Shown piece after piece: positions 16,383-64,000 of a DNA stretch of 64,000 nucleotides. Both the position numbers and the translations under genes were made by a program. This stretch comes from Onthophagus taurus (Eukaryota; Arthropoda; Insecta; Coleoptera; Scarabaeidae). Location: contig NC_091968.1 of assembly GCF_036711975.1 (NCBI RefSeq), forward strand, positions 22,692,001 through 22,756,000, written 5' to 3'. Below the pieces are notes generated by a model. That model was given only the letters and a program-made list of their open reading frames with translations, was not told where the DNA came from and searched no databases. Numbering within the stretch: position 1 is the first letter of the stretch; each line of letters begins with the position of its first letter.

Positions 16383-17363
16383 CTATTTCATTAAATGCCA
16401 ATTAGGTAAAATTTGAACAATCTTAGTAGAAATATGATGAGTTAAATTATAACAAACAGTTTCCCCACCGGCTAAAATCGCCCCCCAAGTACCAAAAGTA
16501 CCATAATCAAAAATCGTGTGATTACAAGACGCCAAAATAGCCAAATCATCGGCCGCTTTGTTTTTCTCACTAGCAATATAAACGTTATCGTAACTTTTAA
16601 AATGCGCTTGGCACCAACCCGGATCGTCACTTACCACGATAAAAGTAACATTTTTATACTTATTTAAGAAATACCCCATCGCCTTTCGATAAAACCCCAT
16701 CCCGACCGCGTTTATATGCAACTTTCTTTGTAAGTATCCGATATAATCGGTTCTTCTCACGTGAATCCCAACGAAAACCGATCCCGATTTACCTTTTGAA
16801 GCTTCCCTTAATAATTTTTGACTTCTCACCAACAAAGCTCGTCGAAACGAAAACTCTTGGATGATATCTTGGACCCATGATAAAACAATTTCCAGTTCCA
16901 TCGTGTACTTCTTTAATATAATACTTTGGTTTGTGTAATTCCACGAATCGACTGATCGTACGAAACGGTTTAACTCGCAATGGCCGATTTCTTCAAAACT
17001 TGGTACGGATAAAACGTCAAATACTTTATCTAATTCAGCACGGATACATTGTGGCACGTAAGTTTCCAATCCAGTTCGTCTTCCGATCGCCCAAACGCTC
17101 GCATATGCCCACATTTGGTTTCCCAATCTTCCTCCTTGTTCCACTGTTACGATACCCTGTTGGGGACATCTTCGATGCTTGAAAACTACTCTTCGTTTAA
17201 TGTTACCTTTACAAATGCGTTGTTCGAAGTCCGCGTATCGTTTTACTGTTGTATGTTTTGCGTTGATATCGTACAAAGGGAACAAAAAAACGTGCACGAA
17301 AGAGATCACACACAGTGCTAAAATCGTTGCTGTGAACAGTATGTTTTGGTTGGCGTTTATCAT
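16383..17363 (-). CDS. Galactoside alpha-1,2-fucosyltransferase (GT11)
   Basis: Type II Golgi enzyme that moves fucose from GDP-fucose to the 2-hydroxyl of a terminal galactose on glycans. Single exon, 326 residues from the ATG at 17363; upstream in-frame codons include no ATG. A hydrophobic segment at residues about 8-30 fits a signal anchor. Family signatures are intact: GGRLGNQMW (77-85), HVRRTDY (201-207, the HxRRxD donor-binding motif) and FDYGTFGTWG (285-294). NYTNQS, NVT and NHT are possible N-glycosylation sites. The length fits animal FUT1/FUT2 and C. elegans relatives. A diverged paralogue without the signatures lies at 29014-29964 on the other strand, so the pair probably came from local duplication and was then pushed apart by transposons. 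The natural acceptor cannot be read from sequence. Confidence 0.88.
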   Translation of the reverse strand: MINANQNILFTATILALCVISFVHVFLFPLYDINAKHTTVKRYADFEQRICKGNIKRRVVFKHRRCPQQGIVTVEQGGRLGNQMWAYASVWAIGRRTGLETYVPQCIRAELDKVFDVLSVPSFEEIGHCELNRFVRSVDSWNYTNQSIILKKYTMELEIVLSWVQDIIQEFSFRRALLVRSQKLLREASKGKSGSVFVGIHVRRTDYIGYLQRKLHINAVGMGFYRKAMGYFLNKYKNVTFIVVSDDPGWCQAHFKSYDNVYIASEKNKAADDLAILASCNHTIFDYGTFGTWGAILAGGETVCYNLTHHISTKIVQILPNWHLMK

Positions 17364-26473: not shown

Positions 26474-26483
26474 TTCCACTATA

Positions 26484-28552
26484 CAGGGTGATTCACATAA
26501 GAACCGACACAGAGCAGGGACATGTAGAGGACAATAAATTAAGATGATTTAACGCAACTTATCTCTATACCAAGTTGTACCCCTGAGGAGTTATAGGCCT
26601 TCAAAGTTGGCTCTTAAATTTTTAAAACATTCAATATCTTCGTAATACATTAAGCTAGAAAAACCAAATTTGGTATACGTTATGAGTGTACCGAGGGTAT
26701 TAATTGGTAGCAAGTTGAGACCAATTGAGGCATTTCAAAGGGTTGATTAAGGGTGATGGTTCCCTAAATTTTGGCAGATTTTTTTAACCTTTTTGTGGAT
26801 TTAATACATTATTACCTCATTTCATGTGGAATTTAATTCTAAAATTTTTTTTACTCTTACTATTTTTAAAAAACATTGTCGTTTTCATAAAAAACTCAAA
26901 AAACTAAAGACGCGTATCTTGTTAATGCTACTTAAAATCATCGAAAATTCAGTAGTCGGCTGTGAAATTGTACGTAATTTGAGAAATAAACTGTTTATTA
27001 TGAGCTAAAAAGACATCATCCATAAACCAATTTAGTTTAGGCATAATAATTTTCTAGTGATAAAGAGAAAATCCCCAAAATGTCAAAATTAAGTACTTTT
27101 AGTTTTAAAATCGATCATAACTCAAGAATGAAAGGTGATGATGAAAGTTTTTTAGGAATAAATTGTTTATTATGAACTAAAAAGATATTATTGATAAACA
27201 GATTTTGTTTAGATGTAATGATTTTCTAGTGATAAAGAGAAAATCCCCATAATGTCAAAATTGAGTACTTTTGTTATCAAAATCGATCATTACTCAAAAA
27301 TTAATTGTGATGGAGATAAGTTTTTTTGAAATTAATTGTTTATTATGAACTAAAAAGACATCATCCATAAACAGATTTGGTTTAGTTATGATTTTCTAGT
27401 GATAAAGAAAAAATCACCAAAATGTCAAAATTGAGTACTTTTGGTATTAAAATAGATCATAACTCAAAACTGAAAGGTGATGGTGAAAAGTTTATTTGAA
27501 ATAAATTGTTTATTATGAACTAAAAAAACATCATCCATAAGCAAATTTAGTTTAGGTATAACGATTTTCTAGTGATAAAGAAAAAATCACCAAAATGTTA
27601 AAATTGAGTACTTTTGGTATTAAAATAGATCATAACTCAAAAATTAAAGGAGATGGAGAAAAGTATACTTCAAATAAATTGTTTATTATGAACTAAAAGG
27701 ACATTACTCATAAACAGATTTGGTTTAGTTATAATGATTTTCTAATGATAAAGAGAAAATCACCGAAATATCAAAATTGAGTACTTTTGGTATTAAAATT
27801 GATCATAACTCAAGGATGAAAGATGATGGAGAAAAGTTTTTTAGGAATAAGTTGTTTATTGTCAACTAAGAAGACATCATCCATAAACAAATTTAGTTTA
27901 GATGTAATAATTTTCAGGTGATAAAGAGAAAATCCCAAAAATGTCAAAATTGGGTACTTTTGGTGTTAAAATCGATAATAACTCAAGAATGAAAGGCGAT
28001 GGAGAAAAGATGAAGAAAACCTTGTCGTCAAATAACTTTATAACTTTGTCGTCAAGTTTGACGTACAATTTCATAGCCAACTACTAAATTTTCTCTTATT
28101 TTAAGTAACATTACGAAATACGTGTCATTAGTTATTTACGTTTTTTATGAAAACGACAAAGTTTTTTAAAAAATAATACGGGTAAGAAAAGTTTTAGAAT
28201 TAAATTCCACATGAAATGAATTAGTAATGTATTAAATCCGCCAAAAGTTTAAAAAAATTTGTCCAAATTTAGGGTACCATCACCCTTAATCAACCCTATG
28301 AAATGCCTTAATTGAGTTCAATTTGTTACCAATTAATACCTGTGGTACACTCATAACGTATACCAAATTTGGTTTTTCTAGCTTAATGTATTACCAAGAT
28401 ATTGAACTTTTTAAAAATTTAAGAGCCAACTCTGAAGGCCTACAACTCCTGAGGTGTACAACTTAGTATAGAGGTAAGTTACGTTAAATCATTTTAATTT
28501 ATTGTCCTCTACATGTCCCTGCTCTGTGTCGGTTCTTATGTGAATCACCCTG
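26484..28552. mobile_element. Foldback element nested in Harbinger, with internal tandem repeats
   Basis: CAGGGTGATTCACATAAGAA at the left and its complement at the right, flanked by TA (26482-26483 and 28553-28554). The arms pair over about 400-450 bp ('gaccgacacagagcaggga', 'ttggtttttctagctta'). The centre is a tandem array (26950-28030). No transposase. Confidence 0.88.
26950..28030. repeat. Tandem array, about 172-bp period, six copies
   Basis: 'tgtttattatgaactaaaaa' or close variants begin at about 26992, 27164, 27337, 27507, 27680 and 27853. Each unit also has 'gattttctagtgataaagag' and 'aaaatgtcaaaattgagtac'. Units are diverged, so the array is not recent. Confidence 0.85.
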
Positions 28553-29013
28553 TATATAACTGAACCAACCTTGACATTACAACCGTCAGTATTATAAAAT
28601 CTCTTCTACTCTGTATCTACTTTGCTCGCCGATATAATTACACGATACTTTTTTACTATCTAGATAGAGCTATCTAGATGAGCTAGTAGCTAGGAAAGTT
28701 GACCGGTCTCCAACTTTACTCGCATACATATTTGCTAGCTAACTATCTGGATAGTTTACACGCCACCATAATTACACAGAACTACTTTACTAGCAGCTAG
28801 TAAAAAAGTGCACTAGTGGCGTGTAAACTATTTCCGTGTAATCGACCCTTTACGGACATTTAAAATCTTTTGCAATACACTTTTTACGCTTCAACCAATA
28901 AAACTTATTGCCATTTAATATATCATTACATAGAAAGTGACAAAATCAACTCATCTCTTATCATTTATGTCAAAGTCAAAAATTAATTTGAAAATGAATA
29001 ATTTTGCTAGAAA

Positions 29014-29964
29014 ATGTTAAGATTAATATATATACTAAAATTTGTTTGTGTAATTTACGCAATCAGAAACGGACATATGTTCGATAACTCCATAAGAAGA
29101 TTTTTTGATACCCCATTTCGAGGTGATCCTGATTGTCCATGGACGAGTATCGTAACAATAAGCGCCAGTAACGATTTTGCGACCCAAATGTGGGAATATT
29201 GCACGGTTTACGCTGTCGGTCGATACACCGGTTTAGATCCTTTTGTTCCTCCGTTAATCCATAAGAAATTATCGTTGATTTTCCAAGGATTATCCGTAAA
29301 ATCATTCGCTAGAATCGCGCGTAAATGTAAATTTAATCGAAAGAAATTCGTTTTTGATTATGCGAGTTGGACCAACATGGATAAGAGTTTGTTGATATCA
29401 AAGGGAAATATTGAATTAAATTTGGTGTTGAAATATTTAAAATTTTTACTTGATCAATTTAAATTGACGGAAATTTTTAAAAAACCTTCCAGCTCCATTA
29501 TCAAAAAAGCTTTAAAACAATACGAATCAAATAAATTAATTGGAATTTATATAAATAAAATCGATTTTGAATACGAAAACCCTTTGTTGGCTAAAACCGT
29601 GGATTTTTATGAAAAAGGACTACAATATTTTCGAAACGAATATAGAAACGTAACATTCATCGCTTTATGTGGAATTAACGCAATTTGTTTGGACATATTT
29701 AAAGAACAAAACGATGTTTATATTTATAAATATAATAATATCGAGCGTTTAACTATTGCGATATTATCGCTTTGTAATCATGTTATTTTCAAAACCGGCG
29801 GAATTGGTTTATGGGGAGGATTATTATCGGGGGGCGAAATAATTTATTCTTTTTGCGAAACTCTTCAAATAAATAAACCTGGAAATTATACAATCATCCA
29901 AAGATTAATTGGAACTAAAAAGAATTGCGATGAATATGATTATTCAATTGAAAATGTTGCATAA
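29014..29964 (+). CDS. Diverged GT11 fucosyltransferase paralogue lacking the donor-binding motif
   Basis: 316-codon open single exon, collinear with the enzyme at 16383-17363. QMWEYCTVYAVGRYTGL matches QMWAYASVWAIGRRTGL, and GLWGGLLSGGE matches GTWGAILAGGE. The key residues have changed: GGRLGN became ASNDFA (51-56), HVRRTDY became YINKIDF (179-185), the FDYG start became FKTG, and VVSDDPGW became ALCGINAI. H and both R of HxRRxD are gone, so classical fucosyl transfer is unlikely. The frame has no stop, and a hydrophobic N-terminus (about residues 3-16) could still insert in the ER. AATAAA follows at 29994-29999. It may be a pseudoenzyme with a kept role, or a young pseudogene that has not yet gained a stop. 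Confidence 0.75.
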   Translation: MLRLIYILKFVCVIYAIRNGHMFDNSIRRFFDTPFRGDPDCPWTSIVTISASNDFATQMWEYCTVYAVGRYTGLDPFVPPLIHKKLSLIFQGLSVKSFARIARKCKFNRKKFVFDYASWTNMDKSLLISKGNIELNLVLKYLKFLLDQFKLTEIFKKPSSSIIKKALKQYESNKLIGIYINKIDFEYENPLLAKTVDFYEKGLQYFRNEYRNVTFIALCGINAICLDIFKEQNDVYIYKYNNIERLTIAILSLCNHVIFKTGGIGLWGGLLSGGEIIYSFCETLQINKPGNYTIIQRLIGTKKNCDEYDYSIENVA

Positions 29965-30366
29965 AAAGTTTTTTTTATTTAAAAATAAACGCATCAACTA
30001 ATTCGTTTGTGTTTCGAATACAATGAACGTGGTTGCATTCACCGGAAGTGATGGGGGACGAATCCCCCGCAATACAGATCACAATTTATATAGACCAACA
30101 ACAAAATTGTTCGAACGTTCTCTCGATTTGCCGCTTGTGTTCAAGTACCCGTTACAAACACCCTTAATAATCACGTTTTAGCCGACAAATAGGGGGGCCC
30201 CCGGACCGCCCGTTCCAGTAACATCATTGGACTTTGTATTCCGGCCGCCCACGCACGACTCCGCCCACGGGAAAAGCCCTCTCGAAGCTTTGCATGCCGA
30301 AAGCTCCCAGAAACAATCCAACAATTTCATCGGTTACATGTTATAAAGTTTTTCGAAATTTCAAAA
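29965..30366 (+). promoter_or_regulatory. GC-rich leader and probable promoter region of rough
   Basis: Much richer in G and C than its surroundings ('ggggggcccccggaccgccc', 'ccggccgcccacgcacgact'). It ends at the rough ATG at 30367. A 14-mer CCACGGGAAAAGCC at 30265-30278 recurs at 47072-47085 downstream of the gene. The start site is not visible. Confidence 0.5.
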
Positions 30367-33300
30367 ATGATGGAAAATGCTAATTTAAAAACACGTTCAA
30401 ACCAACCGTGTTCACCCAAAGACTTTTTCGCGCGGCTTTACGGGCATTTAGAGAGTGATCGTGATGAGAAAGACGACGGGGAAAGAGTTGTTGGTAATCA
30501 AAATGTTGTCGCTCCAATTCCCGTCTTTCCAACTCCTCCAATTCCGTTATTTTTACCGCACGCCACTGATGTACAATTAACTGCAGCAGCCGCCGCTGGA
30601 TTATCAGCTTTTTGTAAGTAAATTTTGTTTAAAAACCATCAATTTCACGTTTGACGTTTCAATAATAAAAATTAACCTAAAAAGAAAAAAGATAATGACA
30701 TTTGAATAAAAAATTAATACCAACCTAATATCTTAAATGTCATATTTTTGCTTTTTGTAAGATAATTAGACCGCGTTATAGGTTTATCTTAGAAAAAATG
30801 CTACAATAAAAAAAATAGATGAACCTACAATTTCGGGGCCAGTGTCCTTATGTCTTAAAACCAAAATGTTCGAACTTTTAATTTTGACATATTTGTCAAC
30901 TTCATAAAAAATCCTTTAAAATGAGTCCAAACTCGACATATTTAACTTTAATATTAATGCAAATACAATCACTTCCGGTTTGAAACGTCAATTTTGACAT
31001 ATTTGTCAACTTCTTAGCAATTTAATTTTTAAATATTAATACCAACCTTATTTTTTTATGTTTCTTTTATTATATTTTTGTTTTTGTGACAAATATTCAA
31101 ACATTTTATAAAAATTAAAAATATGTCAAAATGACATTGACATTTCAAACCGGAAATTCTTATATCTCGAGTGATATTGGAATTAAACGTATCATGTTTG
31201 GACTCATTTTAAAGGATTTTTCACGGCGATTACAAATATATCAAATTGACGTTGACATTCTTAACCGGAAGTTGACCATAACTTCATTAATATTGAAAGA
31301 AAAATGAGAAAAATAGACGAACCTGAGATTGTTCAAAGTTTTTATAATTTAAGTTAATTAGTCGTCCGTGCCGTATTTTATTAGTCATTGTTATTCACTT
31401 GTTTCTCGAGTTGTTATTGACATCAAAAAGTGTAATAAATCGTTCCGTTCAATTTTCGTGAAAAGTAGTTTCAGTTGTGTTAATAGATACACATGTTCGT
31501 TAAAAGCATTTCGGCTTTTATTTTCTATTCGAAGAGATACTTCTACATTTTCTACAAGAACAGTAAGACTTTTCCTTTTTTTGACAGTTTTTCTAACACC
31601 CAGGTTTTTAAGTGACGGTCTCGACTATTTCTTAACAGAGATGAACCTACAATTTCGGGCCAGTGTCGTTTTTTAGATGTTAGTATAAAATTAAAAGTTT
31701 AAGACTTTTATTTTATATACAGGGTGGTTCAGTTTTTAATCGGGAAACTTTACTAGGACGTAGTACTTGCCAAAATAACACAAGTTTTTTATATAAACAT
31801 AGGGTCGCAACTCTTTTGTTTTCGAGCTATGAGCGATCAAAGTTGAGCTAAAAATTTACATTTTATTATTTATTTCGGCTATAAGTAAACCGAAGAATTT
31901 GAAATTTGGTATGTATTTACTACTGGTTAACATCTTGTTTTCTAGCATACCTTAAGCTTCCCTAGCGCCCTCTAAGGGGATGAAATTCACCACCCCCTTG
32001 GTTCTTTTTAGAAGAACTTTTTAACGCCATGGAGTATTAACATAAAAAAATATTGGTTATAAAGCTCATTCTTTAATGGCACTTTTTTGTCTCTTTAGTT
32101 TTTTTCCTAAAATTGATAGTTTTTGTGTAAAAAAATGGAATGTCGTGCCATGTACCGCCATGCTTAGCTAAAATTACTCTAAAAGTTGGCTTTGATTTTC
32201 AAAAAACAATTTATGTTTGTATTGAGACGAGCTGTTAGTTACGTTAAATCCTCTTAATTGTTGACAATTATTGAAAATATTTCTTGATTGTTATTAAGTA
32301 AAAGTATCATTATTTTTTTATTGTTGATCATTGTTTAAAAAACTAGGAAAAATTGATCATGCCACGATTATTTTCGACAGAAGAATACGCAGACATTCAT
32401 TTTATTTATGGTTTTTGTGATGGAAATGCGGAAGCGGCATCTAGAGAATACGCTGGAAGGTTTCCTAATAGAAGATGTCCTGATCCTCAGGTATTTATCA
32501 ATACACATCAACGTTTTCGACAATATGGTTTAAATACCCAGCAAGTACGAAATAATCAAAATAACAGAAACCAAAGAGCAATTTTAAACCTTTTTGATAA
32601 TGACAGCACATTAAGCAGTCGCATAGCTGCTAGACTACTTAAAGCTCAAAATTTACGAGTCTCAAGAAGTACAATTTTACGAACTCTGAAGAAGGACCAC
32701 AGGAAACCCTATCGTTTTCAACCTGTACAAAATTTAAGACCTGAAGATGGTCCTAAAAGAGTAACTTTCTGTAGGTGGTTTGTACAGTCTGTTGAACGTG
32801 ACCAAAATTTTTGTAAGAAGATTTTGTGGACAGATGAAGCCACGTTTACAAGAAGGGGTGTAGTAAATTACCATAACTTACATAGTTGGGAGCATGAAAA
32901 TCCCCATGCAATACGTCCAAAAACCTACCAAACAGAGTTTAGTTTTAATGTGTGGATGGGTGTCATTAATAATAACCTCTGTGGGCCTTATTTTTTGCCA
33001 CCTCGTTTGAACGCAACGATGTTTTTAAATTTTTTGCAAAACGATTTGGCGGAATGTTTATCGGACGTTCCTCTAGGTGATCTGGAGCAACATTGGCTTC
33101 AGATGGATGGGGCACCATCGCATTACAGCGCTAACGTACGTGCATGGTCATAGACGGATAGGACGACTAGGTCCTGTCAATTATCAAGAGGCAAACCGAG
33201 GTCCCGTTGCCTGGCCACCAAGGTCTCCTGATCTTAACGTTTTAGATTTTTTTGTGTGGGGCTATATGAAAAATCTAGTTTACGCCGCTCCAATAAACAC

Positions 33301-36300
33301 TCGGGAAGAACTGTTGGGAAAAATAAAAGACGCTGCTAACACTTTAAGGAACAATCCGTTTCAAATATTAGCAGCAGCTAATTCTGTTGTTACAAGATGC
33401 CAAAAATGCATTGATAACAATGGCATGCATTTTGAACAATTTTTAAATTAATTGTGTTTATTTTTGTAATGAGTTTTTTTGATAAATTTGTTTCATTTTG
33501 ATTCTTATTTAGTTTTCTGTTTGTTTTTTAACATTTTTCTCTTGTAATTTCCATTTTTTTAGTATACTATTTAATTTATTATTAAATGTTACTTATCTTT
33601 TGAATGATTATTTTAACTTAAATTTAATTACATTTTTTATTACTTTAATGAGAAAACAAGTCAAGAGACGAAATCGTAAATAATTTGTGTTATTGTGTTA
33701 GCCCAAAATCCTGGTAAGTTTACATCTTCCATAGCCAACTTAAAATTTTGTTTTTTATTTGTAGGTAGCGCTTTGCCGCGCAATGTAACATATTTTATTT
33801 TTTTACGCAAAAACTATCAATTTTAAGAGAAAAACTAAAGAGACAAAAAAGAACCACTAAAGAATGAGCTGTACAACCCATATTTTTCTATGTTAATATT
33901 GCATTGCGTTAAAAAGTTCTTCTAAAAAGAACCAAGGGGGTGGTGAATTTCATCCCCTTAGAGGGCGCTAGGGAAGCTTAAGGTATGCTAGAAAACAAGA
34001 TGTTAACCAGTAGTAAATACATACCAAATTTCAAATTCTTCGGTTTACTTATAGCCGAAATAAATAATAAAATGTAAATTTTTAGCTCAACTTTGATCGC
34101 TCATAGCTCGAAAACAAAAGAGTTGCGACCCTATGTTTATATAAAAAACTTGTGTTATTTTGGCAAGTACTACGTCCTAGTAAAGTTTCCCGATTAAAAA
34201 CTGAACGACCCTGTAGAATTTAAGTTTAACTAGTTTCGGCCCTTAGCCATCTTCAGAAACTTTACAACTAGATTAACATCTCTTATCTTATCCATTTTAC
34301 AAACGATAGCGGTAGGTAGCGCTAGTTAGCATAAAATATCACTATGTTGCATATTTTTATTGCACTAAAACTAGAACTAACACTAGACCTAGAACTAGAA
34401 TCATTCGGGTTTAGCCGCCTTTAGAGACGTGCGGCTAAACCCGAATGTTTCTAGTTCTAGGTCTAGTGTTAGTTCTAGTTTTACACTATCACTAGAACTG
34501 ACACACGACCTAGAACTAGAATCATTCGGGTTTAGCCGTCTTTAGAGACGTGCGGCTAAACCCGAATGTTTCTAGTTCTCGGTCTAGTGTTAGTTCTAGT
34601 GGCAGTGGCAGTTAGCGCTAGTTAGCATAAGATATTACGATGTTGTATATTTTTATTGAACTAAAACTAGAACGAGAACTAGAAACATTCGGGTTTAGTC
34701 GTGAAGAAAACTTTCAGTTGTCAATGTCAACTTTAATTTTATAATTATATTCGTAATCTTCTCAAAAAACCAAAAAGTTAGAACTTTTAACTTTTAATTT
34801 TCACATATTTGTCAACTTCATAAAAAATCCTTTAAAATGAGTCCAAACTCGACATATTTAACTTTAATATTAATGTCAACGTCAATTTTGACATATTTGT
34901 CATCTTCATTAAAAAACCTTTAAAATGAGTCCAAAGATGACGTACTTATCTCAAAAAACAAAAAAGTTAGAATAAAAAACATTTAACCCGAAGTTAGCAA
35001 CAATGCCGATAGCAATTTAATTTTTAAATATTAATACCAACCATAATTTTTTATTTTTTTTTTTATTATATTTTTGTTTTTGTGACAAATATTGAGACTA
35101 TAAATACTATTATACTATTATATTGAGATTATAAAAATTAAGAATATGTCAAAATGACATTGACATTTCAAACCGGAAGTAGCGTCTATCTCGAGTAATA
35201 TTGGAATTAAACGTATCATGTTTGGACTCATTTTAAAGGATTTTTCATAACAATTACAAATATGTCAAAATTGACGTTGACATTCTTAACCGGAAGTTGA
35301 CCATAACTTCATTAATATTGAAGATAAATATGTCGTGTTTGTACTCCATTTAAAAGATTTTTAATGAAGATTACAAATATGTCAAAATTGAGGTTGACAT
35401 TTTAAACCTGAAGTTAGTTATCAAACAGGGTGTGTCAAATATCTGGAATATAACCAACAACTTCGCCATTTGTGGTTTTAAAGAAAAATGTTTCAAATAC
35501 AAGTTTCTTTATTAACCATGGCGCATTTTTTGGCGATATTTTCTAGTTTGTATTGTTTTTTGTTTCGTTGCTATGGCAACCAACATTGTTATTTTAAATG
35601 GGATGCATACTTTGATAAAGGCTAAGTCCCTCTATGCGTTGAACATATCAAATCATATGGTTGTATAAGAAAAAAATCAAGAAGTCCTAAATCTGCTAAT
35701 TACAATCAAAGTAGGCACCGAAGACAGCTTTAAATGTCAAAAAAATTACAGTTTCAACAATTATGAATAATAATGTTAATAATTAATAATGTATGGCCAT
35801 TGGTAACTATCTTCGGCTATCAACTTTTTGGAAGGTTTTTAACACTTCCGGTGTTAAAACTTTTTTTTAATACTTTGGATACTGTGGATTGTGTAATTTG
35901 TGCAATTTTTTGACATTTAAAGCTGTCAATGGCGTTATTTCGGGGCCTACTTTGATTAACAAATGGACAACTTGATGGGGTTCTTTCATGATGTATTCTT
36001 TATTAAAAACCTTTAAAACGATTCCAAATATGATGCATTTATCTCAAAAAACCAAAAAGTTCGAACTTCATACAACTTTCAACTTTTAATTTTCACATAT
36101 TTGTCAACTTCATACAAAATCCTTTAAAATGAGTCCAAACTCGACATATTTAACTTTAATATTAATGGAAATACAATCACTTCCGGTTTGAAACGTCAAC
36201 GTCAATTTTGACATATTTGTCACCTTCATTAAAAAACCTTTAAAATGAGTCCAAAGATCATGCATTTATCTCAAAAAACAAAAAAGTTAGAATAAAAAAC

Positions 36301-39300: not shown

Positions 39301-42300
39301 CTTGCTGTGGAGTGTACAAAGAAATTAATTTTAAACATAAGGAGCTTGTAGTCTCGTCTGTTCTGATCACTTCTGTTTTTTGTTCAAGTTTTTATTGTTG
39401 TTAATACCAAAGTTACAAAACCTAAAGGATAACGCAGCTTTTTCGGCAGCGCCATCAGAAATTAAAGCAAGCCAGAAAATATTTCAGTAACATTTAGTGT
39501 CGTTGACTGTTGCTAAATAAGAAAAATGCCTTTAAGTCTTGCAGAAGTTGCTCAGGCAGTGGCTTTGGTGAAAGATGAGAGAGCTCCTTCCAATTATGTA
39601 GGATGAAGATTAAGACTAACAACAATGCTGCTATATCTGCTATAAACATTCTGGACAAAAATGTAACATAAAGTAAATCTATCTTGCGAAAATGCGTAAT
39701 TATCTAATATCATCGTTGAAGAAGGCACATCCTTTCTTTCTAGTTTATTATGAATGCATAAAGTGTAGGAAATGTTTATAATGATGTAGATACGTACTTC
39801 CTGTTAATTCCCAATAAATCCTCCTAATTTCTAAATACCTCCTCATTTTATTAATGACAAATATGGTCAATTCTCAAAAATAAAAATTCATATGTTTAAA
39901 ATTTCGAATTTCTTTTTAGTAGCTAGAAGACGTCGTAAAGAAGGTAGGCCGAGACGACAAAGGACTACATTCAGCAGCGAACAAACTCTCCGTTTGGAAA
40001 TCGAGTACCAAAGGGCCGAGTATATAAGCAGAGGAAGACGTTGCGAGTTGGCCGAATCTTTACATCTATCCGAGACGCAAATTAAAATTTGGTTTCAAAA
40101 TCGAAGAGCTAAAGACAAACGCATTGAAAAGGCTCAACTCGATCACCAATACAGGTAATTAAAAATCGAATTTTAAAAAAGTATTTTGGTGCTTTTAATC
40201 CATTTGCATCATAAACTCAAATACAGGTGTCACACAAAAAACGCCCCAAGCTGTAACTCTGTCATTTATATTCCGATTTTCACGACCGAGGCATCAAATG
40301 AAATGGTTTGATGAATATTATGGTTCATGCTACAAATAAATTTTTTTCAAGGCCATCTTCAATTTTAAGCGATTATTAACTTTTGTTTTTCAAATTACTC
40401 CATATATTTCTCTTCACGTCATTAGATAGAGATTGTTTTTCTGAATCCACTGATGTGCAATACATCCACTTTGAATGTAATTTTAGCAGAAAAAAGACAC
40501 CTGTATATACAGGTTGTCGCACAAGAACGCCGTAAGCTGCAACTCTGCCATTGACCTTCCGATTTTTATGAACGAGGCAACAAATGAAATGGTTTGATGA
40601 ATGCTATGATTCATGCTACAAATAAACTTTTTCCAACGCCATCTTCGATTTCAAGCGATTATCAACTTTTGATTTTCAAATTGCTCGGTATGTTTTTCTT
40701 CACGTTATGGGATAGAAATTGTTTTCTGAGCCCATTGATGTACAATACATTAACATTAATTGTAATTTTAGCAGAGAAAAACAATTAAAACATTTTCCGA
40801 ACATTGTCTTAGTCACTTCTGTAATACTGCAGTGTGCCATGGAAAAAATAACACGCAAAACTGATAACAGTCATTAAATGCTATTTCAATGCCCAAGCAG
40901 TTGTAAATGATACTTATAAGTTGGTTTTTCATTTATCCCATGGCACACTACAGTATAACACAAGTGACTTTAAGAGAATGTTCAGAAATTATTTTAATGT
41001 TTTTCTATGCTACAATTACAATTAATGTTGATGTATTGTACATTAATAGATTCAGAAAAAAAAACTCTATCCAATAGCGTGAAGAAAAACATACCGAGCA
41101 ATTTGAAAATCAAACGTTGATAATCGCTAGAAATTGAAGATGGCGTTGGAAAAAGTTTATTTGTAGCATGAATCATAGTATTCATCAAACCATTTCATTT
41201 GATAGCTAGGTCATGAAAATTGGAAGGTAAATGACAGAGATACAGCTAGCGGCGTTCTTGTGTGGCAACCTGTATATACAGGTGTCTTTTCTCTACTAAA
41301 ATTATATTCAAAATGGATGTATTGTACAGCTGTGGATTCAGAAAAACAATCTCTATCCAATGACGTAAAGAAAAATATATAGAGCAATTTGAAAAGCAAA
41401 AGTTAATAATCGCTTAAAATTGAAGACGGCCTTGGAACAAATTTATTTCTAGCATGAATCATAGTATTCATGAAACCATTTCATTTGATAACCCGCTCAT
41501 GAAAATCGGAATGTAAATGACAGAGTTACAGCTTGGGGCGTTTTTTGTGTGACACCCTGTATATACCACGATATATCACAGCTTGTATTAACTTAACTTT
41601 TGAACTTTTTCAAAGTTACTATCGTGGTTTTCAAAAAAGCCCATTGCTTTGTCAAGGTGCTCAATTGCTTCTAGAAGTATTTTCGTTGTCAAGTCTTCAG
41701 ATGGTTCAATATTATTGGTGCTTCTTGTATTTCAAGATTTTTTTATTAAAATTGAGTTTCCTGATTGGTCTTGTTTTTTCTCCAATTTGGAAATAAAGTC
41801 GTCTGTCAATAGCGTGTATAAGCATAGAATTTGTCAAGTCATCAGGAATTTAGTCTGTAAATACAGCCTCTGTCCCAGCCGCCACAAAATACAAGAGCTC
41901 AAAACGCAAAAAAAAGGCTAAGCACATTATATCTTACAGGAGCGTGGCTAAGTACAATCATGTTCACGGGAAATGCACACTCAAGGTCAAGCGCTGTTGT
42001 GAGATCCGACATGCCGCTGGCTAAACGGGCTGAGCCGAGCGCACACGAAGCTCGTGGCTCGTGTGCGTTCGGCTCAGCCCGAAATTTTAATTCTTTTTTT
42101 AGTCCATTACTTGAATTTATATATATACTTTAATTATTTCTATTTTTTTTTGTTACATGAACGGAACTTTAAGGTTCGGTCATGTAAGACGGCTATGTCG
42201 ACCATTGTGAGACGAGACAGGGCCACTCGTGGGGGAGGTGTGGCATTGTACATAGCGCAGCATCTGAGGTATGTCAATGTGCGTGACGTCGGTTTTGTTG

Positions 42301-45300
42301 ATGATGACGTTGAGCAGCTCTGGGTTTTGGTGTCAATCATGTCTAGAATTATTGCTTTCGGGTGCGTATATAGGTCTCCAAGCTCAAATGTGTCTGCCTT
42401 CCTTGGCAAGCTGAGTTCCACGTTGTGTCATATATAGGATGTCTCTGACTTCCTGTATTGTATAGGGGATATAAATATAAATATGTTGGATTTTGATGAA
42501 AGAGCCACAATGAGATTTAATATACTCTTAGACGAATTGTCTCTTGATCAGGTAATTAATCTACCCACGAACAACCCAGATACGTACAATTCAAAGAGTT
42601 GTACAAACCAGATAAACAGGCCTTTAGATATTTCAGACCATAACCTAATCCAATGTGATATAGTGTTTTCAGGCTTGAAGTCCGCTCCGACGGGCAGATT
42701 ATGCAGGAATATATCTGGCATGAATGACTCCGACTTAAGGCGTGATCTCGTTTGTTTACCTCTTCATAACATCTATCATATGAATGATATTAATCAAAAA
42801 GTAAACTTCTTAAACTCTCATCTGTTGAATCTACATGCACAGCTGCGTCCTCTTAGGACTACTAAGCCTTTTACTCCATGGATAACGCCCAATATTAGGT
42901 TTATGATGAAGCTCAGAGAACAGGCTCTGGGTAAATTTAGGAGAACAAAACTAGCTCCTCATTTCGATTATTACAAATCTTTGAGAAATTTAGTTACATC
43001 GGCAAAAAAAAGCTTATTTCAATAGCACATTTAAAAATATGGACGCGATTTGGATGCGATTTAGTGGTTTCCTCTTTGTAAGTGAGACATACTGTATAAG
43101 TTGTGGTGTGGTTTAAGTAGCCAATTTTTGCTTCTCTCAGATTCTATACAGGGACTGGGATTTTTTGACCATATTCTTTGTTTTGAAAATTTGCCATTTA
43201 AGCCAATTTTTTGCTAACTTTGAAGTCCTCTAGCGGCGAAACGAAGCAACTTTGGATATAGATAGCTTAACTTAAATCGACCTATTTTGAGCCAAGGAAT
43301 CTGTGGTCTTCCGTTGTACACGCATTTCGGAGACACCTGTATATAAATCATTCCATTGAAGTAAATTAGAAATGGTCACTCAACGAATATGTAAAAATCC
43401 TTCAGAAAAATCAAAAAAAGGGACTAAATAGGGTTAAAAATAAGGAAAAACAAGAATTTTTAAGACCAGTCGTTCTTTAACTGTTGTACTTTCGCGTTTA
43501 TACTTTTAGATCAACTGAAATTCTTTGAACATTTTGTTAATATTGTTTTTCGTCCTTTTCAAGTAAGTTACAAAAACTCATTAAGTTAAGTTTTATGTTT
43601 TTCAAATTTAGGGTTCGACCCTTTTGTTTTTTCTGAAGGATATTTTACATGTTCGTTGAGGGACCATTTCTAATTTACTTCAATGGAATGATTTATATAC
43701 AGGGTGTCACACAAAAAATGCCCCAAGCTGTAACTCTGTCATTTACACTGCGATTTTTATGAGCGAGTTATCAAATGAAATGGTTTGATGAATACTATGA
43801 TTCATGCTACAAATAAACTTTTTCCAAGGCCATCTTCAATTTCAAGCGATTATCAACTTTTGATATTCAAAGCGCCCGGTATGTTTTTCTTCACGTTATT
43901 GGATAAAGATTCTCTTTTTGAACACACTGATGTACAATACATTAACATTAATTGTAATTTTAGCAGAGAAAAACAATTAAAACATTTTCCGAACATTGTC
44001 CTTGTCACTTCTGTAATACTATAGTGTGCCATGGAAAAAAATAACGCGCAAAACTGATAACAGTCATTAAATGATATTTCAATGCCCGAAGCAGTTGTAA
44101 ATGATACTTATAAGTCGTTTTCTTTATTTTTTCCCATGGCACACTACAGTAATACAGAAGTGACTAAGACAATGTTAGGAAAATGTTTTAATTGTTTTAC
44201 TCAGTTAAAATTACAATCAATGTTGATGTATTGTATATTAATGGATTCAGAAAAAAAATCTTTATCTAATAATCTGAAGAAAAACATACCGAGCAATTTG
44301 AAGATCAAAGTTGATAATCTCTTGAAATTGAAGATGGCGTTGGAAAAAGTTTGTTTGTACCATGAATCATAGTATTCATCAAACCTTTTCATTTAATACC
44401 TCGCTGATGAAAATCGGAATGTAAATGACAGTTACAACTTGCGCTATTCTTGTGTGACAATCTGTATATACAGGCTGTCTTTTTTCTGCTAAAATTACAT
44501 TTAAAATGGATGTATTGTACATTAATGGATTCAGAAAACCAAACTCTATCCAATGACGTGAAGAAAAATATACGCTGCAATTTGAAAAACAAAAGTTAAT
44601 AATCGCTTCAACTTGAAGATGGCGTTGGAAAAAAATTATTTGTAGCATGAATCACAGTATTTATCAAACCATTTCATTTGATACCTGGGTCATGAAAATC
44701 GGAATGTAAATAACAGAGTTACAGGTTAGGGCGTTTTTTGTGTGACACCCTGTATATGTATACGATTTCCCGATTACTCATATGTGTACCACATTGAGGG
44801 TAACTATTCCATGTTTTGTATCAATTTTTTTACCAACTATTTAATTTTAATTTTAGTTGTACCTGAAGAAGGCTACTTGACCGAAACATGTTGTACTGAA
44901 AAAGATAAATAAAGAAATCGCATCGTTTAGTTTAGAAACAGTTAGTAACAGATATTGAAAAGGAAATTCTAGGTTTCGATAGGAAAGCTGAGGATATCAT
45001 CTATCAGGGTAATAGATGAATATCTACCCGCTATCTTACGTTATAATATTTTACTAGTATTAAATACAATTTGGATTTATTATGATATGATGTATCAGAT
45101 AGAACTATTACATATCCTTCATTTTTCAAGTCTTTTGCTAGTATTTCATAAGTTTCATAGATTCATATTAATTGGGCGCAACATCTCTACATACAGAGAT
45201 TAACAGATTAGTTTCAAAATATACAAAAGGAAGACAAGTAGTAGGAGGACACTTTTTAGGAAGGACAGAACCTACAAAAGGACTGTCCTATCTAAAGGAG

Positions 45301-50813: not shown

Positions 50814-53800
50814 ATGAATAACGATTTATCAAACTCGAATTTAACGGAAGAATCAGGCGATGATTTGGTAAATAATATTTTTTAACTTTTTATTTTGATT
50901 CAAACAAGAAAATTTTAGGATGAAACTTCTTCCGTTGGAAGCACTTCAACTACGGATAACACCTCGAGAAGTGCCACCCCTACTAATAGACTCAGAAGAG
51001 GTCGTCGTGGTAAAAGAAAAATAAGCCAGAACAAAGTTTTGAAGCCAATTTATAAATATACGTAATAAAAATGTTTCAATTATGTTTTTGGTCAATAATT
51101 ATCTTCTTGGGATTAGTTGTAGTATAAAAGAAGATCATGCTCAACCGTTATTTGGCACACAATTCAATCATAGTCTAAAAGAAGGCCAACCGTTGGTTTT
51201 TGCAGCTGTTGGAACAAATCGAGTTTCTATTTATGAATGTCCTGAAGGAAATGGTATTAAATTGTTACAATGTTATGCTGATCCAGATGTATCCTTTTGT
51301 TTTCTTTTTAACACTAAACGTACCAAGACTTAATAAATGCTGTAATTTATTGTTTCTTAGCAACAAAAACAAAATTGAAAAGAAAAAAAGCTAATTTATC
51401 TCTGTTTCTTCTTAATTTAGGCCATAATTCTGGTTTTAATTTGTAAAATTGGAAATATTCTGCATTGATACCCTGTTTCTCTTTCATTAATCTATCTAGA
51501 TTCCATTCTTCATTTACCTCTTATTTTCTGGTTTTATTTATTGGTATTTCCTTCTAACTCCATTACATGTGACTCAATCTTTGTGATTGTGCCTTTTCTA
51601 TATTAACTTGATTTTCTTCAAAGTCTTCTAATTTGTTGTTATTATCGTCCAATTTCTTTTCTGTGTCAGATTGTCTTGCTTCCAAATTGGTAATGTTTTT
51701 GTTGAGTTCTTTTTGATGTTCATATATTTGAACTTAACTCTCCTCTATTTTTTCTTCTATTTTCTTCCATTAATTGTCTCAACATTTTCATAAGATTTCC
51801 TTTTTCACTTTTTTCTTTATTATGTCCTGAAATACTTTGTTTTTCTATTTGTACCAGCTTAATTACTTGCTCTTCTCTTCCTCCACTGACCTATTTTGCT
51901 ATAACTCTACTTCTTGTTTGACTTTACAGTTTGACTGGTAATGAGACGTCAAAATTTCAAAAATCGTCAGTTTAATTTAATTTTTTTAGAACTTCTAAAG
52001 GTTTGACATTAAAAAAACGTAAATAAATTCTTTTTTCCTATGATTTAAACATAATTAATTTTCGCTAAAAAAAACATGACGTTTCATAAAATTGACATTT
52101 AATTTTGACAAATTGTTGTGAAGTTGGTTACAATTGGTAACATTGAATTTCTGTCACATTGACGTTTAAATTTTATTCAAAAATTTATTTAAAAAAATAA
52201 ATTTATGGAATCAATTTCAATAGTAGACGTGATTTGATGCCAAATTTGTCTGGCTTAATGGACATATATTGCTTAATTCTGCATTTTGCTTTCGTCGGAA
52301 ATAGTTGTTCGTCCACAATAACTTTTACCCCTTGTTTATAACAATTTTGACCGTTCTCAATAAATTTATTCCATACCTCAGATATCAAGGCGAATTTATC
52401 TGTTTTCTGTTATGGGCACTTTTTTTTATCAAATCGAATAAATCTGAGAATTTCTATAAACCAATTCTACAATTTTTTCGAATTTTGCAATTTTCGCCGA
52501 TTCAGTTTTAAAAATTCGTATAAAATCCATTTCTTGGAATATGAGTATGAAAATTTCCCAAAGTGTTAATAAAAGTGTCTTCTTTCCAATGAACCAACCC
52601 GTTTTGAAAAATAACTTTTAGTTTTTGAGAAAACAATATTTGAAGTTTTGATAAAATTTTCGATGTTGCAATTTTCATCGATAACTTTGAAAATTCGCTA
52701 TAAAATTAATTTCTTGAAGGATCCTTGTGGAAATATCACCAATTATTAATTAAACTATCTTCTTTTTAATGCAACAAGCCTTTTTGAAAAATCACTTTTA
52801 GTTTTTGAGAAATAAATTTTTGAAATGATCGACAAAAGAGAAAGATGTTTATCCCAGCTTATCACAATACAATTAAAAATTAAATAATATTATACAAGTA
52901 GTCCTTCTGCCCATGTTACACTGATTAGTCATTTTTTAGCAATCCACGATTTTCTTGTAGTGTCAAAATTTGAGGATTCGAAAAGAGGAGAAGGGTTTGA
53001 GGACATATTTTTGTAAGCTTTTTGTGCTAGGAGAGATATTCGTTGAGTAAGGGGAATAATTTGGAATTTTTCATAAAGGAGATTGTTAGAGGGGTTGAAT
53101 AGGGGATTTCTGGGGTTTCGAAGTTTGGATATTATTCTAATTGCTAATCTTTCTGCTACTTCTAGATGCGATATTGCCTTTTTGCTGATATTAAGGAAGA
53201 TGGGAGCTCCATAATTAAGAATGTGCCTGCAAATTGTTTTATAAATATGGTCGACAATTTTTTAGAATTTTGCAATTTTCGACAATTAAGTTTTAAAAAT
53301 TCGTATAAAATCCACTTCTTGGAATATGAGTATGAAAATCTCCCAAAGTGTTAATAAAAGTGCCTTCTTTCCAATGAATCAACCCGTTTTGAAAAATAAC
53401 TTTTAGTTTTTGAGAAAACAATATTTGAAGTTTTGATGAAATTTTCGATGTTGCAATTTTCATCGATAATTTTCAAAATTCGCTATAAAATCCATTTCTT
53501 GAAGGATCCTTGTGGAAATATCACCAATTATTAATTAAAGTATCCTCTTTTTAATGCAACAAGCCGTTTTGAAAAATCGCTTTTAGTTTTTGAGAAATAA
53601 ATTTTTGTAATGATCGACAATTTTTTCGAATTTTGCAATTTTCGCCGATTAAGTTTTAAAAATTCCTATAAAATCCATTTCTTGGAATATTAGTATGAAA
53701 ATTTCCCAAAGTGTTAATAAAAGTGTCCTCTTTCCAATGAACCAACCCGTTTTGAAAAATAACTTAGTTTTTGAGAAAACAATATTTGAAGTTTTGATAA

Positions 53801-55256
53801 AATTTTCGATGCTGCAATTTTCATCCATAACTTTCAAAATTCGCTATAAAATTCATTTCTTGAAGGATCCTTGTGGAAATATCACCAATTATTAATTAAA
53901 GTATCCTCTTTTTAATGCAAGAAGCCGTTTTGAAAAATCGCTTGTAGTTTTTGAGAAATAAATTTTTGAAATGATCGACAATTTTTTCGAATTTTGCAAT
54001 TTTCGCCGATTAAGTTTTAAAAATTCGTATAAAATCCATTTCTTGGAGTATGAGTATGAAAATTTCCCAAAGTGTTAATAAAAGTGTTCTCTTTCCAATG
54101 AATCAACCCGTATTGAAAAATAACTTTTAGTTTTTGAGAAAACAATATTAGAAATTTTGCTGAAAATTTTCGATGTTGCAATTGAAATATCACCAATTAT
54201 TAATTAAAGTATCCTCATTTTAATGCAACAAGCCGTTTTGAATAAATTCATGGTACGTTTAGTGTTAAATTTTCAAATAAAAACGTCTTTTTAACTTAAT
54301 TAAACTTAGTTGGATGAAAATTATTATACATGCGCATGGTCTCACGACGAAGAAACGGGAAAGCCACTTTTAGCTGTAGCTGGATCAAGGGGGGTTATTC
54401 GAATATTAAATCCAGCTACAATGACATGTATTCGTCACTACATAGGTCACGGTCATGCTATAAACGAATTAAAATTTCATCCAAGAGATCCTAATTTATT
54501 ATTGTCAGTTTCAAAAGATCACGCTCTTCGATTATGGAATATAAAAACCGATGTGTGTATAGCAATTTTTGGTGGCGTTGAAGGCCACAGAGATGAAGTT
54601 TTAAGTGCAGTAATTAATTTAATTGAGTTTTAAAAAAATGAATTATTTTGATTTAATTTTAGGATTTTGATTTATTGGGTAATAGAATTATGTCTTGTGG
54701 AATGGATCACTCTTTAAAGTTATGGAAATTAGATAAAGAATCGATGAATAAAGCGATTAAAGATTCGTATCAATGGATGGCTAGTAGAAGTTCAAGACCG
54801 TTCGATTCATTAAAAGAACATTTTCCTGACTTTTCAACTCGAGATATCCACAGAAATTACGTTGATTGCGTCCGATGGTTTGGTGATTTTATTTTTAGCA
54901 AATCGTGCGAGAATTGCATAATTTGTTGGAAACCCGGTCGATTGGAAGATGAAACTTTAAGACCTGGAGATACAAGTTCGACGATTATCCATCGCTTCGA
55001 ATATAAAGAGTGCGAAATTTGGTTCGTTCGGTTCTCGATGGATTTTTGGCAGAAAATTTTAGCGCTTGGTAATCAAATTGGGAAAGTTTTTGTGTGGGAT
55101 TTGGATGTAACTGATCCGAGTCAAGCGAAATGTTACACTTTACAACATCCGAGATGTACTAGCGCCGTTCGACAAACAAGTTTAAGTAGGGATGGAAATA
55201 TATTGCTTTGTGTATGCGATGATGGCACAGTTTGGAGATGGGATAAAATAGCTTAA
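50814..55256 (+). CDS. esc: Extra sex combs / EED, WD40 subunit of Polycomb repressive complex 2
   Basis: Binds trimethylated H3K27 and activates the E(z) methyltransferase in PRC2. Five exons in phase: 50814-50867, 50919-51061, 51117-51288, 54310-54609 and 54663-55256, giving 420 residues (fly Esc 425, human EED 441). The basic, serine-rich N-terminus (residues about 18-60) is followed by seven WD repeats: [120 protein letters not shown] and [17 protein letters not shown]. Every block agrees with EED in order. Intron 3 is about 3 kb and carries LINE fragments and a 362-bp tandem repeat; other introns are about 50 bases. The 3' end of the last exon is repeated at 55418-55660. Confidence 0.93.
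51420..51935 (-). pseudogene. Coiled-coil ORF1-like relic of a LINE
   Basis: On the minus strand: [20 protein letters not shown], then after a frame change [20 protein letters not shown] and [20 protein letters not shown], all heptad-like and charged. Such coiled coils open ORF1 of several non-LTR elements. It lies in esc intron 3, antisense. An unrelated coiled-coil pseudogene is possible. Confidence 0.45.
51940..52200. repeat. Dispersed 'ataaaattgacatttaattt' repeat, copy 1
   Basis: 'acgtttcataaaattgacat', 'ttgtgaagttggttacaatt' and 'cacattgacgttta' in order. Further copies at 55640-55870, 58605-58780, 58860-59095 and 59540-59680. About 200-240 bp each, non-coding, always within or next to esc or the region to its right. 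Confidence 0.75.
52470..54245. repeat. Tandem repeat, about 362-bp period, in esc intron 3
   Basis: 'gaattttgcaattttcgccg' recurs at about 52478, 53264 (variant), 53626 and 53988. Each unit continues 'cttggaatatgagtatgaaa', 'gttaataaaagtgt' and 'cttgaaggatccttgtggaa'. The first copy is separated by a LINE fragment (52860-53240). The last copy is truncated near 54240, just before exon 4. Confidence 0.85.
52860..53240 (-). pseudogene. LINE RT C-terminal fragment within the 362-bp array
   Basis: Minus strand: [40 protein letters not shown], then [20 protein letters not shown]. This is the region after the RT palm in CR1/jockey-type proteins. It was inserted into the array or the array grew around it. 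Confidence 0.7.
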
Positions 55257-61279: not shown

Positions 61280-61319
61280 ATTTAAAAGATAATATTAAAA
61301 TCTATCAATTTTTTTTTCA

Positions 61320-62735
61320 AATTTTAATATTTAATTTACTGAAAATAATTTTGACAGTTTACTATGTGGCGCCATCTCTTAATTTTGTGCATAAATACAA
61401 AAATATATTTTAATTAAAAATTTTATGTTAATTAATTTGTTAATTCAAGAAAAAAACTTAAATTGTACAAAAATTTATTGTTAAATACATAATAATACTT
61501 TGATCATTCATTTTAATCAAAAAAACATTCCAAAATAACAATTTGTCATTAAATCTTCAAAACATCTTTTTATTTTTAATATCTTTTTATATATTATTTA
61601 GATTAATTAATTTTTGGTTAATTGCAATTAATTTATCGAATTTACTTTCAAATTTTAATATTTAATTTAATAAAAATAATTTGAACAGTTTAGTATGTGG
61701 CGCCATCTCTTAGCTTTGTGCATAAAAACAAAAATTTATTTTAATTACAAACTTTATTCTAATTAATTTGTTAATTCAAGAAGAAAACTTAAATTGTACA
61801 AAAATTTATTGTTAAATACATAATAGTACTTTGATCATTCATTTTAATCACAAAAACATTCAAAATAACAATTTTTCATTAAAAATCTTCAAAACATCTT
61901 TTTATTTTTAATATCTTTTTATGTAACTTTTGAATTAATTAATTTTTGGTTAATTGCAATTAATTTATCGAATTTTCTTTCAAATTTTAATATTTAATTT
62001 AATAAAAATAATTTTAACAGTTTAGTATGTGGCGCCATCTCTTAATTTTGTGCATAAAAACAAAAATATATTTTAATTAAAAACTTTATTCTAATTAATT
62101 TGTTAATTCAAGAAGAAAACTTAAATTGCATAAAAATTTATTGTCAAATACATAATAATATTTTGATCATTCATTTTAATCACAAAAACATTCCAAGATA
62201 ACAATTTGTCATTTAATCTTCAAAACATCTTTTTATTTTTAATATCTTTTTATTTAACTTTTAGATTGATTAATTTTTGGTTAATTGCAATTAATTTATC
62301 GAATTTTCTTTCAAATTTTAATATTTAATTTAATAAAAATAATTTTAACAGTTTACTATGTGGCGCCATCTCTTAACTTTGTGCATAAAAACAAAAATAT
62401 ATTTTAATTAAAAACTTTATTCTATTTAATTTGTTAATTCAACACGAAAATTTAAATTGTATAAAAATTTATTGTCAAATACATAATAATACTTTAATTA
62501 TTCATTTTAATCACAAAAACATTCCAAGATAACAATTTGTCATTAAATCTTCAAAACGTCTTTTTATTTTTAAAATCTTTTTATGTAATTTTTAGATTGA
62601 TTAATTTTTGGTTATTTACAATTAAAATTATCGAATTCTTTTTCAAATTTTAATATTTAATTTAATGAAAATAATTTAGACAGTTCACTATGTGGCGCCA
62701 TCTCTTGATTTTATGCAATTTGTTAATTCAAGAAG
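61320..62735. repeat. Satellite, 331-332 bp period, about 4.3 copies
   Basis: GTGGCGCCATCTCTT recurs at 61366, 61697, 62029, 62360 and 62692. Each unit also has 'taattaatttgttaattcaa', 'acatctttttatttttaata' and 'gattaattaatttttggtta'. Units are nearly identical, more alike than other arrays in the window. It lies between the two convergent trypsin genes and begins about 40 bases past the stop of trypsin 1. Confidence 0.92.
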
Positions 62736-63042: not shown

Positions 63043-64000
63043 TTAAATTCCGGAAATTTGGGCGATCCAATTGCGGAGATTTCCAGTGCAGGCGTAAACT
63101 CCGGGGAAATTGGGTCTAGCGCATCCTCTTCCCCAAGAAACAACACCGACGAGGGTGTTTCCAACAGCTAATGGGCCACCGCTGTCTCCTTGACAAGCGT
63201 CTCTACCACCAGAAGCAAATCCAGCGCAAATCATACTAAAAAAGATTAAAATTAAAACAAAATTGTTAAGTTAAAAAAGAATTATTCACCGATCAGTAAT
63301 AGCGGAAGTGCCATAAGATGATCTACAACTAGCTTGGCTGACAATTGGAACAGTAACAGCTTGGAGTTGAGTGGCACCAGGTCCACCTTCCTATTTATAT
63401 GAGAATAGGAAGAAATTAAAGATTAATTTATTTATTATATTTAAATTTACCCTAATGGCACCCCATCCAGACACAACAGCGTTAGTACCAGCAGATGGGC
63501 GGCTACCAGCTGATGGCAAATTAATTCTTTGCACTCCAGTGCTTCCAAGAGCGAAAGATCCAGAAATTTGTGCGAGTGCAATGTCGAAATCGAGAGTTCT
63601 AGAGTTGTAGCTTCCGTGAACAACCAATCTGGAGATGCTGTGAATGGTACCTCCAGAATTAGCCATAGAACTTCCAGACCTGATGCTGAAGGTTCCAGAA
63701 ACACTACAAAAAAAGAACAATAAACAAATAAATTCCAAAAATCGTTAAAAAAATACCCGACAAGACAATGAGCAGCGGTAACAGCCCAATTAGTACCGAT
63801 GATGACAGCTCCACAGAAATGGGAAGTTCCAAGTCTGAGAGATACTTGGTAAGGGAAGTTGGCGATGTTCACCGTTTGACCTCCGACGATTCTTCCATCC
63901 AAAGTTGGCACGATGGGTTTGAAACCCCTATCGGCAGCTAAAACGAGTTTAAATTGAAATCTTTACGCAATCAAAAGATGATGTTGAAAACTCACCAACG
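63043..64000 (-). CDS. Trypsin (serine protease S1), gene 2, first exon beyond right edge
   Basis: Paralogue of trypsin 1 on the opposite strand with the same exon layout. Visible exons: 64000-63996 (end of exon 1), 63937-63757, 63703-63451, 63390-63290 and 63235-63043. The propeptide ends LDGR before IVGG. The triad residues are in TAAHC, LDFDIA and GDSGGP, and [10 protein letters not shown] gives the trypsin-type [17 protein letters not shown] completes the pocket. Minus-strand AATAAA signals lie at 62998-62993 and 62960-62955. The signal peptide is outside the window, except for the last five bases of its exon. Confidence 0.93.

Follow-up and report, generated by a model that had tools for sequence, protein, structure and literature searches.

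The stretch of genomic DNA analysed here (hereafter referred to as the window) comprises 64,000 nucleotides of the beetle Onthophagus taurus (assembly GCF_036711975.1, contig NC_091968.1, positions 22,692,001 to 22,756,000 of the forward strand). It carries two genes of glycosyltransferase family 11 (GT11), 12 kb apart: an intact fucosyltransferase gene and a paralogue in which the donor-site motifs of the family are replaced (Table 1). The paralogue frame starts with an ATG at 29014 and ends with a stop codon at 29962-29964, confirming the open frame of 316 codons described in an earlier, model-written note on this DNA. The stop-to-stop run at this place is 317 codons long. When the 64 kb window was simulated 100 times with a Markov-2 model, the longest run reached 203 codons and the maxima averaged 138, which rules out a chance open frame.

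The alpha-1,2-fucosyltransferases of GT11 include FUT1 and FUT2 as well as the bacterial WbsJ and FutC, and are represented by the Pfam model PF01531 (Glyco_transf_11). The paralogue scored 41.7 bits against this model (E = 1.1e-10; 41.2 bits in a genome-wide search) and its intact neighbour 118.4 bits, the curated cut-off being 23.9 bits. By BLASTP, the paralogue and the intact enzyme were identical at 83 of 241 positions (34%, E = 9e-50). The match spans residues 41-277 of the 316, leaving the first 40 and the last 39 outside, and the end-to-end alignment claimed previously was not obtained. In a quick tree of the first 50 of 77 aligned rows, the paralogue and the intact copy formed a pair of sisters (SH-aLRT 99), a placement that the long branch of the paralogue weakens. 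Judged from the profile cut-off, which it passes, and from its grouping with GT11 enzymes in the tree, the paralogue is a GT11 protein by descent.

We searched the whole genome (290.8 Mb) with PF01531 and with two proteins as queries, at E values up to 1 or 10, and scored the best candidates (2, 2 and 5) exon by exon. GT11 sequences were found at two places only, neither with an internal stop, in a search that a much-split or very diverged copy could escape. A tblastn search of the window gave no further GT11 copy, the remaining matches having E values of 2.3 or worse. NCBIfam models gave no match near a cut-off, and a sequence search for a solved GT11 structure with the intact enzyme returned two matches (E = 0.35 and 0.87), both unrelated by title. 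Single-protein queries of viral and genome contigs confirmed no close relatives; the profile queries, made against collections of viruses and prokaryotes, returned the best 80 of 528 and the best 80 of 459 relatives.

We then compared the residues that characterize the family. The alignment bears out that the HxRRxD motif has been replaced in the paralogue: HVRRTD of the intact enzyme (residues 201-206) corresponds to YINKID, with His changed to Tyr, the first Arg to Asn and the second Arg to Lys, and with the last Asp retained. It likewise bears out the loss of GGRLGN (intact residues 77-82), in place of which the paralogue has SNDFAT. Two losses come in addition to those noticed before, namely the change of SDDPGW (intact residues 245-250) to CGINAI and that of D273 to Thr. 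Thus, none of the hallmarks of an active GT11 enzyme (the first Arg of HxRRxD, GGxLGN, and SDD..W with the later Asp) is present in the paralogue. Among 32 residues that are conserved at 80% or more in the family and present in the intact enzyme, the paralogue retains 12, as against at least 23 (median 30) in each of 75 bacterial and phage rows. A relative-rate count gave 24 family residues retained by the intact copy only and 6 retained by the paralogue only (p = 0.001).

The 75 rows are GT11 proteins fetched by an HxRRxD-like or a C-terminal motif. The 160 profile-fetched loci gave 156 proteins of 230-380 amino acids and, after thinning at 70% identity, 111, of which 75 were aligned, hand-picked for spread without a written rule; six of the nine phage and plasmid loci (L005-L013) were aligned. 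As a control, we used loci fetched by profile: PF01531 matched 14 of 148 genomes of one bacterial phylum at 17 places, all over the family cut-off except one (L189). By profile alignment, all 17 hits have the first Arg of HxRRxD, whereas 13 have the His, 14 have the second Arg and 16 have the last Asp. One of them, L176, lies in the genome of L100, a locus itself fetched by motif; when it is left out, the counts become 16, 12, 13 and 15 of 16, respectively. Since the His and the second Arg vary among the profile hits, the motif is less rigid than in the motif-fetched rows, and the plain HxRRxD-like pattern recovers 10 of the 17 loci. The first Arg, being present in all 17, is the diagnostic residue. 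A passage on WbsJ in a review describes this Arg as critical for activity (PMC4202792).

Variants of HxRRxD occur in the bacterial loci L183, L188, L191 and L184 (HARRLH; Ser for His with an altered second Arg; TVRRGD; SIRRGD); two of these, L184 and L191, come from a single genome (G069), where about 6 kb separates them. By tblastn, the intact GT11 protein matched 102 phage records (for instance, L005-L008), 83 of them named as Synechococcus phages or viruses.

To assess the age of the duplication, we compared silent sites and branch lengths of the two copies. Only 7 of 25 shared fourfold sites are identical, which is no more than the random expectation of 0.32, so that these sites are saturated. 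Identity at the three codon positions is 50, 56 and 36%, with dN = 0.78 and dS = 1.92; the pairwise ratio, saturated and common to both branches, was not used as a branch test. The end branches measure 5.26 changes per column for the paralogue and 0.72 for the intact copy. The saturated silent sites and the long branch rule out a very young duplicate, one of the two options offered in the earlier note; on these comparisons the pair is old, with protein-level constraint over much of its history.

We simulated neutral drift from the intact gene. When drift was continued until the loss of family residues matched that in the paralogue (K, the number of neutral changes per site, of 0.4-0.5), the frame had acquired 14-15 stops on average and was open in 0 of 400 replicates; the actual paralogue frame has none. 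With indels, 5.5% of replicates were open at K = 0.02, and 0 of 400 at any K tested from 0.05 upwards. At 0.1 indels per substitution (a rate of 0.098 was obtained from 39 overlapping pairs of repeats in the window itself), the probability that an unconstrained frame is open is 0.05 at K = 0.021 and higher below. The second simulation comprised 4 x 1000 replicates at K of 0.4-0.7, and every replicate had at least five stops; on average 36-41 of 60 hydrophobic family columns were kept, and the 50 kept in the paralogue were reached in none. Because a matching loss by drift brings about 14 stops and none is present, selection would have been acting on the frame during the erosion of the donor site. 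The paralogue thus combines lost catalytic residues with a frame that is open for longer than neutral drift allows, as a maintained pseudoenzyme should.

The positions that have been preserved point in the same direction. Hydrophobic family columns are still hydrophobic at 50 of 60 places in the paralogue and at 55 of 60 in the intact enzyme. At positions where the two copies differ, the paralogue has a hydrophobic residue in 27 of 37 hydrophobic columns and in 19 of 59 polar ones (p = 1.4e-4). For the 32 strongest positions, the residue class is retained at 16 of 19 hydrophobic and at 4 of 13 polar positions (p = 0.0035); it is only in this class-preserving count that the two kinds of position separate, and the classes were chosen after the alignment had been viewed. 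The two GT11 proteins have 5 of 7 lumenal cysteines in common, as well as an NVTFI stretch with an N-glycosylation sequon. The predicted fold of the paralogue resembles that of solved fucosyltransferases (GT-B), and the order of strands and helices in its predicted C-terminal half is near that of GT11 enzymes.

The N termini of the two proteins differ. The best 15-residue mean hydrophobicity of the N-terminal stretch is 2.01 in the paralogue and 2.78 in the intact enzyme, and the best 19-residue mean is 2.45 in the latter; the three best 19-residue windows of the paralogue (1.47-1.5) all lie outside the N-terminal part. The short hydrophobic stretch of the paralogue suits a signal peptide better than a membrane anchor. 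A TAG at 29008-29010, directly 5' of the paralogue ATG, is a candidate splice acceptor of an upstream exon, which makes the true N terminus and the 5' end of the paralogue unsure. Read by eye, a short upstream frame (28994-29020), whose own ATG is at 28994, runs into the beginning of the paralogue.

We consider that the paralogue is an old GT11 duplicate that became a pseudoenzyme, having lost donor-sugar catalysis while its frame and GT-B fold were under selection, and we assign to this reading a probability of roughly 0.6. The paralogue would then probably be retained for a non-catalytic job: it would enter the secretory pathway by means of its short N-terminal hydrophobic stretch, fold like the enzyme without using GDP-fucose in the manner of the family, and act by protein contact or ligand binding rather than by fucosyl transfer. 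The non-catalytic upkeep suggested in the earlier note thus has in its favour the open frame, the hydrophobic positions and the cysteines; any of the specific roles named there (partner, chaperone, lectin-like) would be a hypothesis within it. If the reading is true, a GT11 case in an animal with only two GT11 genes found would provide a small and clean system for learning what keeps an eroded enzyme alive. Among the matches listed in a search of open-access titles and abstract beginnings, none described an insect GT11 pseudoenzyme, which is not proof of novelty.

A degenerate GT11 gene beside active ones has a precedent in mammals, where SEC1 (FUT2P1) is a neighbour of the active FUT1 and FUT2. 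SEC1 is a plain pseudogene in human, whereas the frame of the beetle paralogue is open. The paralogue resembles the alpha-1,2-fucosyltransferases of GT11 in its Pfam score, its sisterhood in the tree and its predicted C-terminal strand and helix order, and differs from them in that the family's donor-site residues, among them the first Arg of HxRRxD, are missing. To our knowledge, few dead paralogues steer active glycosyltransferases, and the best known of them is Cosmc, in GT31. According to PMC5493369, Cosmc (C1GALT1C1) is a homologue and chaperone of T-synthase that is 27% identical to its client and has no DxD motif; in this respect it is likewise a motif-less homologue of an active glycosyltransferase. 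It differs in belonging to GT31, which is thought to have a GT-A fold, and in that its chaperone action is experimental, while the beetle protein is known from its sequence. Fam20A, described in PMC5413348 as a secretory-pathway pseudokinase that activates Fam20C, is also a dead paralogue with an active counterpart as its target; it belongs to the kinases, and the likeness is an analogy only.

As part of the pseudoenzyme reading, the likeliest partner of the paralogue might be the product of the other GT11 gene, served as Cosmc serves T-synthase. A partner role with the intact enzyme is the mechanism that we would favour, but it is a guess that we regard as possible though doubtful. Its strictest form, in which a Cosmc-like pair has arisen independently in a GT-B family and the dead, fast-evolving duplicate is the obligate partner or chaperone of one active GT11 enzyme, seems to us unlikely. 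Another variant of the same reading, a secreted lectin-like or decoy protein with a glycan-acceptor or other ligand site kept and its donor site lost, would agree with an N-terminal stretch more like a signal peptide than an anchor. We think it distinctly improbable: it is indistinguishable here from a partner role, and region 101-170 of the intact enzyme is kept in the paralogue (24 of 70 residues) no better than the rest.

Several observations weigh against a maintained pseudoenzyme and lend something to its rivals. The sole pointer to the intact enzyme as the partner is that no other GT11 gene was found. By strict identity, the strongest positions do not separate (3 of 13 polar and 9 of 19 hydrophobic, p = 0.27), and the fold is in part presupposed, the structure prediction having had an alignment of GT11 enzymes as its input. 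Some catalysis is possible, given the retained Asp of HxRRxD and the Lys at the second Arg. These two residues, with the predicted fold, would also suit a protein that is still an enzyme and whose GT-B fold, with its donor site remodelled, serves a different donor, acceptor or chemistry. Bacterial GT11 proteins vary at the His and the second Arg of the motif, as described above, and alpha-1,3 activity has been recorded for a member of GT11 (PMC4202792). The first Arg, invariant in the profile hits, is nevertheless Asn here, and GGRLGN, SDDPGW and D273 have been lost along with it; we regard continued enzymatic activity as improbable.

The remaining observations of this kind concern the most recent past. 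The codon-position base composition of the paralogue is weakly coding-like (chi-square p = 0.0017), with 4.6% of 590 background windows scoring as high, and the last 0.02 changes per site are too short a span for selection to be judged. This would suit a gene that was in use until recently, as an enzyme or otherwise, and whose time as a pseudogene amounts to less than about 0.02 neutral changes per site, too little for a stop to have appeared. Transposable elements abound nearby (of the 9 other long frames scanned, 4 are pieces of transposons or retroelements), which would also suit a recently dead gene. However, neutral change of K = 0.02 would remove no more than some 1.3 of the 32 family residues. 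The 20 that are gone must therefore have been lost before the death of the gene, under selection for the frame, and this explanation, which we consider rather unlikely, still needs a phase as a pseudoenzyme or altered enzyme. A plain old pseudogene whose frame is open by luck would account for the accelerated branch and the lost family residues, but the absence of open replicates at every K from 0.05 upwards, and the five or more stops in all replicates of the second simulation, make it scarcely credible.

Table 1. Positions of the two GT11 genes and their family motifs in the window
Feature	Position	Strand	Remarks
GT11 paralogue	29014..29964	+	316 amino acids, open frame; aligned part intronless
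Place of GGRLGN, here SNDFAT	29167..29184	+	pairwise alignment; Asn in 75/75 other rows
Place of HxRRxD, here YINKID	29548..29565	+	alignment; first Arg to Asn
Place of SDDPGW, here CGINAI	29668..29685	+	alignment
Place of family Asp (D273 of intact enzyme), here Thr	29752..29754	+	family alignment
AATAAA, possible polyadenylation signal	29984..29989	+	20 bases 3' of paralogue stop codon; sequence only
Intact GT11 fucosyltransferase gene	16383..17363	-	326 amino acids; sole other GT11 place found in the genome
HVRRTD of intact enzyme	16746..16763	-	alignment
GGRLGN of intact enzyme	17118..17135	-	alignment

Elsewhere in the window, a transposase-like frame at 32353-33153 (forward strand) matches DUF4817 over the cut-off and a Tc3-type helix-turn-helix below it. 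It is flanked by 419-base inverted repeats at 31718-32136 and 33797-34215 that are 96.7% identical, and together they probably constitute a Tc1-like element. Repeat arrays and inverted duplicates, about 75-95% identical, occupy 26480-28560, 40218-41566 with 43694-44758, 52466-54183 and 61299-62717. An RNase MRP RNA gene lies at 559-809 on the reverse strand (RF00030, 96.7 bits, full model length). The forward-strand segment 54675-55256 encodes a WD40-repeat fragment, whose Pfam beta-propeller matches are all below the cut-offs and which, by eye, we take to be EED/esc-like. On the reverse strand, 63447-63911 holds the first part of a frame for a trypsin-like protease (PF00089, 50.4 bits).
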